From Longibacter salinarum (GTDB taxonomy: Bacteria > Bacteroidota > Rhodothermia > Rhodothermales > Salinibacteraceae): a stretch of 64,000 bases of DNA. Location of the stretch: positions 806,001 to 870,000 of the forward strand of contig NZ_PDEQ01000001.1 in NCBI RefSeq assembly GCF_002554795.1. Direction: 5' to 3'. Position 1 is the stretch's first letter, and each line of letters starts with the position of its first letter. The notes below the pieces were generated by a model, which did no database searches, was not told where the DNA came from, and saw only the letters and a program-made list of their open reading frames with translations. The translations under genes were made by a program, and so were the position numbers. Below are positions 36,085 through 50,286 of this stretch, one piece after another.

Positions 36085-36117
36085 ACGGGCCGCTCTCGCC
36101 GGAGCGGCCCGTTTTTT
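36085..36117 (+). terminator. Rho-independent terminator after sppA
   Basis: Perfect 10-bp stem 36085-36094 (ACGGGCCGCT) with 36103-36112, followed by a T-run (36112-36117). Placed just after the sppA stop. Confidence 0.95.
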
Positions 36118-36143
36118 ATTCTGCACATTCGCGGTGGACGTTA

Positions 36144-36524
36144 TACCTTTTCGACTTTCAAAGGTCGGTGTCTCCAACGGCTTCGATTCGGCGGACGCAC
36201 CACACCCTAGCAGAAGATCGTCTAAACGGATCCCGTTGAAAACTTGCTTGGCGGATGGATCTCAAAAACGCACGCTCGGTCGTTCCTGTCTAGTCGCAGG
36301 CCGGGCGGTGATCCGATGACACGTGTGCTATAGACACGGTGCGCGAAACAAACGAGGCGTGGTTGCGCAGGCGTCCCAAGGACCGACCGTCGGGTCGAGA
36401 GGTCCGTCCTTTGGATGGTCGAAGGCGGTCCGCCAAACAGGTTCTTAACCGGTTCTCTTCCCAACGCGCAGCCGCTGCGAGGACACGGCTTGGGCGACCC
36501 CGACGATATCATTCGGAAAACGTA
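36144..36524. mobile_element. MITE-like inverted-repeat element, copy 1 (long form)
   Basis: The two arms (36144-36240 and 36447-36524) match, in inverted orientation, the two arms of a second copy at 49685-49857; about nine bases in ten agree by eye over the arms. Ends are imperfect inverted repeats (CCTTTTCGA at the left versus CGTTTTCCGA reading in from the right) and each is bounded by TA (36144-36145 and 36523-36524). Between the arms is a ~206-bp insert absent from copy 2 that itself carries an inverted pair (TTGGCGGA near 36248 and its complement near 36427-36435). No ORF resembles a transposase. The right end abuts the TAA stop of the DUF2339 gene (minus). Confidence 0.7.
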
Positions 36525-38864
36525 TTAGTTCTCCTCGTCGACTCGCACTCGATCCTCTTCCCCACTCGGCAACAGACCCGGTAGCAGGTATCCAGCAAGC
36601 AGCAGCACGATACCGAACCCAAGGAAGATGAAGATGCGAGCAGCCGGGGACAGAGCGGAGAGATCCAGGAGAAACAGTTTCGCTACGACGAGCAAGAGCG
36701 TCGCGAACCCGGCATACTGCACCTCTGAGCGATTGGACACCGTTCCGAAAATGATGCCGACCATCGCGGTCGCCCCCCATATCGACGATACGATTCCGGC
36801 CCCGCCTCCGAAGCCGTCAACCACGTGAGCGGTCCACACGAGCCACAGAACCAGTGTCCCAAGCCGGTAGACTGCCGCTACGACCTCGGGGCGACTCCAT
36901 ACCGCTACGCTGACGAACAGACCCACCACAGCGAACTGAACGATGGCCGTCTCGAGTGTCATCGTGCCCATACCCGATGCCCAGATCTCCGTCGCGAACG
37001 ACATCGAGACGAGTAGAAAGAGCCCGTGGCTGACCCAACCGACCGTTCGTCGTACCGGAGACAGCACGGTTCCATTCACAAGCTTTGGAACGCGGGCGAT
37101 CGCAAACAGCGTTGTCGCGTGCAGCGCCCAGATGAAGCGCGTCCAGGTCAGTGCGTGGCTTGGCTCGCCGATCATGTGCCACGTCCATGCTGCAAGAAGT
37201 GAATTGGCCCCAACGAAATAAACGCGTCGGACCGAACGAGACCGCACAAGAAATGCGCTACCGAACATCAGCACAGCGACAATTAAGCGACCCGTCATTG
37301 TCGAAAGGTCACTCTCTATGCGCGGGAGATCCACTTGAAACGACTCGACAGCGACGAGGAGGAAAAGGATGTGGCCAACCGTACGGAGCGCCCGAGGGGC
37401 CCCTCGGCGAGCGATCGCGAAATGTCCTGCCGCCTGAACAGCCAGGAGAACGGTGATGTATGGTCCGTCTACCGCTGTTCCAATAGACGCTGTCACAAGT
37501 AGAGACGCAAGCACGGCATAAACGGTACGTTCTAATTCGAGCGCCATTCGGCTCGCCCACTCGCTCCCCAGTGCGTACATGACTGCGAGGACAAGCATGA
37601 GGAAAGCAGCGGCCCCTTCGCCTAGATCCCAGTTCGCGACCGTTATAACCACAAACAGCGTCGGCGTGACCGTGGATGCAAAAATGATCCCGGTCTTCGT
37701 CCAGAGACTACGTGTCGTCTCCTCGGCTCCCTCCTCCGTGGTACGATTCTCAACCTGGGACTGGACCCACGCGGGCAATCGAGACATCCACCGTTCTCGT
37801 AGCGCACCAGCGCGTACAATTTGGTACGCGAGAGGAATCACGGCCGATGCTAGCCAGGCGGCAACCGCACTCACCTGAATTGACACCCGGTCCACGTCCG
37901 TGGCATCGCCGGTGCCGACGAACGAGAGCGTAGAGACCCACGCGACCAGCGTGACGAGCCACATGCCTCCGATGGAGGTGTACAGCATCGTAATCCAGCC
38001 GCGTAACCAAAAGAGCGACGTGGTCAAGACAAGCACGACGAGAGCGTACCCGACGAGACCCGGCACCGAACCGGCATCCGTGTAGAGCACGAAGGGCGTC
38101 GCGTAGGCGCCCAACGAGCCGATGACCGCCATGATCGGCTCCTCCTGCCGCACGGCCACCCCGAACGTCCCAAGGGTCACAATGACCATCAGGGCGAACG
38201 CCGCCGGGTAGCCAGCCAGGCCGTAGAGCTGATAGGCGCTGAAGATGGAAACGTAAAGCGTAGCAGAGCTCCCGCCCAGAAGGACTTGGCCGAACCGCGG
38301 GCGCTCGTCATACAGCCGAAGCCCAGCATACAGCAAGCTCACACCGAGTCCGCCGCCGAAGGCGATACGAATAATCGGGCCGAGCCAGTTCTGCTCCACC
38401 GCGTAGCGAAAAAGAAAGGCAAGGCCGAAAAGCAGTAGCGCGATTCCGATGCGGCTGAGCCAATCCTCTGTTGTCGCTCCGAGCACGGTCTTCAGCCACC
38501 CACCCGCACGGCCGGGGAGAGCGGTCCCCATCCGGCGGGACGACGTTGCCTCTCGCGAGCCGCCCTTGCCAAACCGATCGCTATCCGCACGTTCCGCCTC
38601 GGCTTCGCCCTCTACCGTCCGTGACGACCCACCGGTGGCGGATTCACTTGACTTGAGCTCGGCTGGAGACGTGGAGGCACGTCCCGCCTGTTCTTCCGAT
38701 AGCACATCGTTCTCCGGTTCAGACGATGACGTGCGCGAGCCAATCTCACGTTCGATGCGGAGGACCGCGTCGAATAATTTGTCGACGCGTTGCTCCAACC
38801 GATCAACTCGGTCGCCGAGGTCCGGATTATCGTTCTTGCGCGGTGAGGTCTCGTCCGGTGGCAC
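36525..38864 (-). CDS. DUF2339 family polytopic membrane protein
   Basis: A 779 aa protein with a short N-terminal coiled coil (LGDRVDRLEQRVDKLFDAVL), a polar acidic linker and then some 20 or more hydrophobic segments, with the FGGGLGVSLLYAGLRLYDERPRFGQVLLG pattern (shown in part) typical of DUF2339. Function is unassigned; such proteins are found in many Bacteroidota. The gene is 47 bp downstream of gpmI. Its stop codon TAA is directly followed by the TA of repeat copy 1. Confidence 0.85.
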   Translation of the reverse strand: MPPDETSPRKNDNPDLGDRVDRLEQRVDKLFDAVLRIEREIGSRTSSSEPENDVLSEEQAGRASTSPAELKSSESATGGSSRTVEGEAEAERADSDRFGKGGSREATSSRRMGTALPGRAGGWLKTVLGATTEDWLSRIGIALLLFGLAFLFRYAVEQNWLGPIIRIAFGGGLGVSLLYAGLRLYDERPRFGQVLLGGSSATLYVSIFSAYQLYGLAGYPAAFALMVIVTLGTFGVAVRQEEPIMAVIGSLGAYATPFVLYTDAGSVPGLVGYALVVLVLTTSLFWLRGWITMLYTSIGGMWLVTLVAWVSTLSFVGTGDATDVDRVSIQVSAVAAWLASAVIPLAYQIVRAGALRERWMSRLPAWVQSQVENRTTEEGAEETTRSLWTKTGIIFASTVTPTLFVVITVANWDLGEGAAAFLMLVLAVMYALGSEWASRMALELERTVYAVLASLLVTASIGTAVDGPYITVLLAVQAAGHFAIARRGAPRALRTVGHILFLLVAVESFQVDLPRIESDLSTMTGRLIVAVLMFGSAFLVRSRSVRRVYFVGANSLLAAWTWHMIGEPSHALTWTRFIWALHATTLFAIARVPKLVNGTVLSPVRRTVGWVSHGLFLLVSMSFATEIWASGMGTMTLETAIVQFAVVGLFVSVAVWSRPEVVAAVYRLGTLVLWLVWTAHVVDGFGGGAGIVSSIWGATAMVGIIFGTVSNRSEVQYAGFATLLLVVAKLFLLDLSALSPAARIFIFLGFGIVLLLAGYLLPGLLPSGEEDRVRVDEEN

Positions 38865-42938: not shown

Positions 42939-42972
42939 CTGCCCCCCTGAATCGAACCGAGGGGGGACAAAT

Positions 42973-43013
42973 AAAAAAACGAGGACCTACCGCGGAGGTA
43001 GGTCCTCGTTTCA
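42973..43013. terminator. Bidirectional terminator between DUF4105 gene and pseudokinase gene
   Basis: Perfect 13-bp stem 42979-42991 / 42997-43009 with a 5-nt loop. On the minus strand it is followed by seven T; on the plus strand by a weaker T-rich stretch. It closes two convergent genes. Confidence 0.93.
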
Positions 43014-43050
43014 TTGTTTGATCCCGGACCGCTGGTCCAGGCACGATGGC

Positions 43051-49607: not shown

Positions 49608-49684
49608 CGGTCAGACATCGACCAGGGGATGGCGGTGCAGCACGTCGATCGTCAACACGCCCGATTCCACCATGCCATCATATA

Positions 49685-49857
49685 TACGTTTTCCGAATGG
49701 TATCGTCGGGATCGCCCAAACCGTGTCCTCGCAGCAGCTCCGAGTTGGGAAGAGACCCGTTTCAACAATACACGTTCAAGCGTTCTTCTGCTAAGGTGTG
49801 GCGCGTCTGCCGAATCGAAGCCGTTGGAGACACCGACACCTTAACGTCGAAACGGTA
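49685..49857. mobile_element. MITE-like inverted-repeat element, copy 2 (short form)
   Basis: 173 bp matching both arms of the element at 36144-36524 in inverted orientation but lacking its ~206-bp middle. It is bounded by TA at 49685-49686 and 49856-49857, with inner ends CGTTTTCCGAATGG and (reverse-complemented) CCGTTTCGACG. The right boundary immediately follows the ruvX stop codon on the minus strand. No transposase or other ORF of substance. Confidence 0.7.
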
Positions 49858-50286
49858 TTATCGGGCATCTAGGTAATCCTGGAGAATGACAGCAGCCGCG
49901 GCCGCATCGACTCGGCCCTTGTCATACCGCCCAGGTTGGCGGACGCCTGCTTCTCGAAGTGCGCCTTTCGCAATTTCCGAACTGAAGCGCTCGTCCTGTC
50001 TGACCACGTCGACGCCGGAAATGACCTCCCGAAGCTCCTCGACGAACTCGTCCACAAAAGCCGTCGAGTCATTCTCCTCGCCGTCTAGAGACAGCGGCCA
50101 TCCAACGACGAGAATTCGGATTCCCTCCTCTTCGTGAATCCGCTTCAATTCCTCCACGGCTGCCTCTGGCGCAAATGTGCCGTGAACCTGAGAGAAGACC
50201 TGCAAGGGATCTGAGCGGGCAATCCCAACCCGCTTTGTGCCGATATCCACGCCGACTGCTCGTGGAGTTGATTCGAGTAAACTCAC
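49858..50286 (-). CDS. ruvX: Holliday junction resolvase-like protein RuvX (YqgF)
   Basis: A 142 aa RNase H-fold nuclease. AVGVDIGTKRVGIARSD contains the first catalytic aspartate (D14), and the later VVGWPLSLDGEE and RQDERFSSEIAK motifs complete the acidic site. Its roles in bacteria include 16S rRNA 5'-end maturation or junction resolution. It starts 12 bp downstream of the HU-like gene stop, so they are co-transcribed. Stop codon TAA is followed directly by the TA end of repeat copy 2. Confidence 0.93.
   Translation of the reverse strand: MSLLESTPRAVGVDIGTKRVGIARSDPLQVFSQVHGTFAPEAAVEELKRIHEEEGIRILVVGWPLSLDGEENDSTAFVDEFVEELREVISGVDVVRQDERFSSEIAKGALREAGVRQPGRYDKGRVDAAAAAVILQDYLDAR

Follow-up and report, generated by a model that had tools for sequence, protein, structure and literature searches.

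Two MITE families (non-autonomous DNA transposons), termed A and B, in all likelihood account for the repeats found in a 64-kb stretch of the Longibacter salinarum genome (the window); both duplicate a 3-bp TNA target, and one copy of B is nested in the first of two A copies. The families are new, while the kind of element that they represent is already well known.

Copy 1 of A (36144-36524, plus strand) comprises 173 bp of A, with the ends TACCTTTTCGAC... and ...CGGAAAACGTA, aligned with 25 other two-ended copies, and is split by the nested B (36240-36444, plus strand, 205 bp), whose terminal inverted repeat has the consensus GAACCTGTTTGGCGGA; copy 2 (49685-49857, minus strand) consists of 173 bp of A without B. 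A repeat search recovered the two arms that these copies share in inverted orientation, one of 99 nt at 82% and one of 79 nt at 90% (matches 36143-36525 and 49684-49858), and imperfect inverted repeats are present at the ends of both copies, in agreement with the first-pass annotation of this DNA. That annotation had, however, treated 36144-36524 as a single element, which holds for the A part; the extra ~205 bp, which it overlooked, belong to the separate nested family B. Copy 1 is bounded by TTA on the left (36141-36143) and on the right (36525-36527), giving the boundary layout TTA-TACC...CGTA-TTA, and the right-hand triplet is the minus-strand TAA stop of a gene for a DUF2339 membrane protein (36525-38864, minus strand; PF10101, E = 5e-65). 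At copy 2, the target duplication on the ruvX side (TTA, 49858-49860) is the TAA stop of ruvX, the called part of which, including the 3' end, spans 49858-50250 on the minus strand (PF03652, E = 4e-31), and the other flank (49682-49684) reads ATA, one base off TTA. The nested B lies between TGA (36237-36239) and TTA (36445-36447), the latter with one base changed. These imperfect duplications of A copy 2 and nested B are consistent with the decay of old copies. Elsewhere in the window, at 42963-43025, an intergenic 29-nt inverted repeat (83%, 5-nt loop) unrelated to A or B is possibly a terminator.

A whole-genome search of the 4.4-Mb genome (G000) returned 51 matches for copy 1 and 34 for copy 2, so that the earlier expectation of many copies genome-wide, drawn from two in 64 kb, was borne out and the repeats can be regarded as genomic families. 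The matches to copy 1 form two sets, covering either the outer parts only (the 173-bp A) or the inner ~205 bp only (query positions ~107-318), and this inner part, B, also occurs alone at other loci. Two-ended copies were recovered for A (n = 26) and B (n = ~80). With the 16-bp B end GAACCTGTTTGGCGGA as the query and up to 3 mismatches allowed, 146 and 162 matches (~300 ends) were obtained versus 24 for a reversed-pattern control, which indicates roughly 140 B copies in the genome. The length of A is ~173 bp, with a second subfamily of ~190 bp, and that of B is ~200 bp; neither has any coding capacity, and both have inverted termini, those of A being imperfect and of the type TAC(C/G)GTTTTC (ends TACCGTTTCGAC and TACGTTTTCCGA, further written as TACGTTTTC and TACGTTTTCCGAAT) and those of B measuring 16 bp. 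Copies of both families are dispersed and stand between unrelated flanks, as MITE copies do. Bacterial MITEs have been described as short, gene-less, intergenic and multi-copy elements with terminal inverted repeats (PMC10969869), and A and B match them in all these features, with no match to either sequence in plasmid and phage collections. The first reading of the repeats as MITEs, with many copies in the genome and target duplication at the boundaries, was right in its general idea.

Rearranged forms were also encountered. At one locus (G000:C5:265014-266398, L115), seven B-type units stand head-to-tail with a period of 197 bp, adjacent units sharing a terminal repeat, and this array is a tandemly amplified MITE. 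At three others (L005, G000:C8:40919-41175; L004; L008), half of A is joined to a whole or cut B and the other half is absent, which suggests deletions or one-ended rearrangements at B.

The target rule emerges from the flanks of the two-ended copies. Identical 3-bp flanks, all of them TNA, were found in 13 of the 26 A copies, versus 5.3 expected on re-pairing left and right flanks; for B, they were found in 42 of the 82 listed pairs, to which a few loci contribute two overlapping pairs, versus 18.0 expected on the same re-pairing. Among copies with TNA on the left and right alike, the two middle bases are the same in 13/18 cases for A (5.3 expected, P = 2e-4) and in 41/51 for B (19.8 expected, P = 2e-9). 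TTA/TAA predominates among the A duplications, and no duplication longer than 3 bp was seen at the flanks of A or B. The repeated unit is consequently the triplet TNA with its matching middle base, and not TA at both boundaries as first annotated; the "TA" consists of part of the TNA triplet together with the opening bases of A itself. In the same way, a TAA stop does adjoin both copies in the window, as had been described, but the stop is the duplicated triplet itself and does not merely have a boundary TA beside it.

Not one of the 97 listed A and B insertions lies inside a called gene, the gene calls coming from a script that took its codon usage from the window, and the duplicated triplet is the exact stop codon of a called gene in 7/26 A copies and 7/71 free B copies. 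Since TAA and TGA are TNA triplets, an insertion at a stop codon regenerates that codon, and the encoded protein stays as it was. The C-terminus of RuvX, ending in ...QDYLDAR before the stop, is the same in another genome of the genus (G001), in which the gene ends in TGA and has no A element directly behind it, so the insertion on the ruvX side left the protein unaltered. Random TNA sites outside coding sequence, stops included, would yield 3.1 exact-stop cases for A (P = 0.025) and 3.9 for B (P = 0.10), figures whose background is one 64-kb window with a simple gene caller; the effect is therefore mostly that of the target rule and of selection against gene disruption, and a small excess of A at stop codons remains beyond the target rule. 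Safe-site targeting, by which A above all would be actively directed to stop codons beyond the TNA rule, for example via the sequence context of gene ends, we regard as unlikely. A related case is ISPsp10, an IS427-group element of Pseudomonas that was inserted at TAA, with the target site supplying a stop codon and a TA duplication being reported; there, however, the target provides the stop of the element's own transposase gene, whereas the triplet at A or B preserves the stop of a host gene (PMC4133298).

The nesting of B in A was resolved by deleting B plus one triplet, which renders 11 A copies collinear with uninterrupted A copies. The insertion point inside A reads CCGTTGA in four copies; in the other seven it is (A)CGTTTGA or close to it. 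Four of these seven, members of the ~190-bp A subfamily, carry B in the opposite orientation. B has entered A in at least three independent insertions. At targets elsewhere, B leans towards GTTCA/GTTGA-like contexts and, the centre of A reading GAACGTTTGAACGTATACCGTTGAAACG, a preference of B for such contexts may be the reason why A so often hosts it. An alternative would be that A and B form one composite that moves as a unit, solo A and solo B being its deletion derivatives, and this would suit both the carriage of B by at least 11 A copies and the pair of composites L001 and L002, in which B occupies one shared site and the full-length identity is 91%. Such a unit is nevertheless very improbable: B sits at two different sites in A and in both orientations, removal of B with one triplet restores an uninterrupted A, and solo B has target duplications of its own at many other loci. 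Separate families thus remain the preferred reading, and the likeness of individual A+B composites indicates that some of them have probably spread together.

The first-pass annotation had also offered a terminator or 3'-end processing element as an alternative. A transcription terminator or processing RNA acting after genes would agree with the copies placed exactly at stop codons, but the TNA rule alone already predicts 3.1 such cases for A and 3.9 for B, and many copies lie upstream of genes. No intrinsic terminator (hairpin plus T tract) was found in A or B, and sppA has its own at 36085-36112. Folding was not clearly better than that of shuffled sequences (z = -1.05 in the case of A copy 2 and -1.60 in that of 36250-36454, a segment that overlaps B with a shift of 10 bases), covariation was essentially absent from a 49-copy B alignment (-0.15 kcal/mol), and an Rfam scan gave no match. 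We therefore hold this alternative to be highly improbable, and a host function of A or B is not supported.

As to the family of the elements, the IS5 family/IS427 group (PF13340 plus PF01609/PF13586 transposases) and its derived MITEs resemble A and B in the 3-bp TNA duplication. The IS427 group duplicates TNA, and the rule was measured on PF13340 elements of relatives: those in the same bacterial family have TNA duplications, for example, TCA-GAGCCTGTATTC...-TCA and TTA-GAGGCTGTTTAG...-TTA, and a further end of this kind is GAGTCTGTTTTG. In the form GAACCTGTTTGG, the B terminus resembles these three ends; as GAACCTGTTTGGCGGA, it fits the type GA(G/A)(C/G)CTGTTT and was compared with the PF13340-element ends GAGCCTGTTTC, GAGGCTGTTTA and GAAGCTGTTTT, the first two of which are also like the B end written as GAACCTGTTTG. 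By its ends and target rule, B is best filed as a putative IS427-group MITE. A, likewise a MITE, shares the TNA rule with B but has an unrelated terminus that is unlike IS427 ends. Unlike the IS427 group, neither A nor B carries a transposase. Among eukaryotic elements, PIF/Harbinger Tourist-like MITEs make a 3-bp TNA-type duplication, and the likeness of A to them would appear to be limited to this target rule. The IS630/Tc1-mariner type with TA duplication, to which the repeats had at first been assigned, is extremely improbable, for although many boundaries contain TA, the A terminus itself begins with TA, the middle base of TNA matches on both sides far above chance in both families (as in the IS5-family/IS427-group elements of relatives), TCA and TGA are frequent among the duplications, and B starts with G, so that TA is not the duplicated unit.

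The history of the copies can be arranged as follows: (i) transposases supplied in trans would cut at TNA, duplicate the triplet and so spread A and B; (ii) B would be mobilised via its IS5-family/IS427-group ends, presumably by a transposase of that group; (iii) a B element jumped into an A element, producing copy 1; and (iv) insertions at stop codons would survive on account of the rebuilt stop and unchanged protein.

An autonomous element with A or B ends, for which a search had been proposed, was not found among the PF13340/PF01609 genes of the genome, a draft of 22 contigs, nor among the PF13340 loci of 27 genomes of the bacterial family in a non-exhaustive search. Recent IS copies tend to drop out at the contig ends of draft genomes. 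Several candidate parents were rejected: (i) the only PF13340 transposase element of the genome (L095) has the ends GCAGTGTTTGAAAA/GCTCTGTTTGAAAA, which are not A or B ends; (ii) the remaining PF01609 matches (IS4-like, L155/L156) are partial genes at contig starts; (iii) the variant A loci are without a transposase carrying these ends; and (iv) two pairs of B ends in another genome (G068), 1316 bp and 622 bp apart, enclose no recognisable transposase. The longer of these two (G068:C8:47414-48729; L225:915-2230) spans 1316 bp between long, near-identical inverted B-type ends, and the DUF1223 (PF06764) gene inside it may be a passenger carried between MITE ends.

Other genera within this bacterial family have MITEs of ~160-255 bp that carry the 16-bp end of B (or GAAGCTGTTTGGCGGA) around different interiors, mostly with TNA duplications, and outside the family only single scattered matches to the B end were found. 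A is restricted to the genus within the sample, with many copies in the genome studied here and one, at another place, in G001, the only other genome of the genus. There, the interval from the sppA to the DUF2339 orthologue is free of A; the genome's identity is ~70-82% in matching stretches and its intergenic DNA is unalignable, and for this reason no exact orthologous empty site was aligned. Exact 20-mers searched in GTDB genomes gave one chance match, inside a Saprospiraceae gene, and three lone matches to the B end in viral contigs, without a partner end, were taken as chance. The intergenic DNA of the genus (in G001, the C379 and C102 ends, L089 and L090, and C43, L093; also the flanks of L155/L156) contains many degenerate short tandem repeats of the GTTGAGGC/GTTCAGG type, in which TNA sites like those that B uses are numerous.

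Taken together, these results offer an explanation for repeats that seem attached to stop codons: with TNA as the duplicated triplet, a transposase can strike TAA or TGA harmlessly, a safe-site effect that may extend to other TNA-duplicating elements and their MITEs. The presence in one genome of roughly 140 copies of a single MITE family, with relatives across the bacterial family, bears on how intergenic regions and the ends of genes are annotated.
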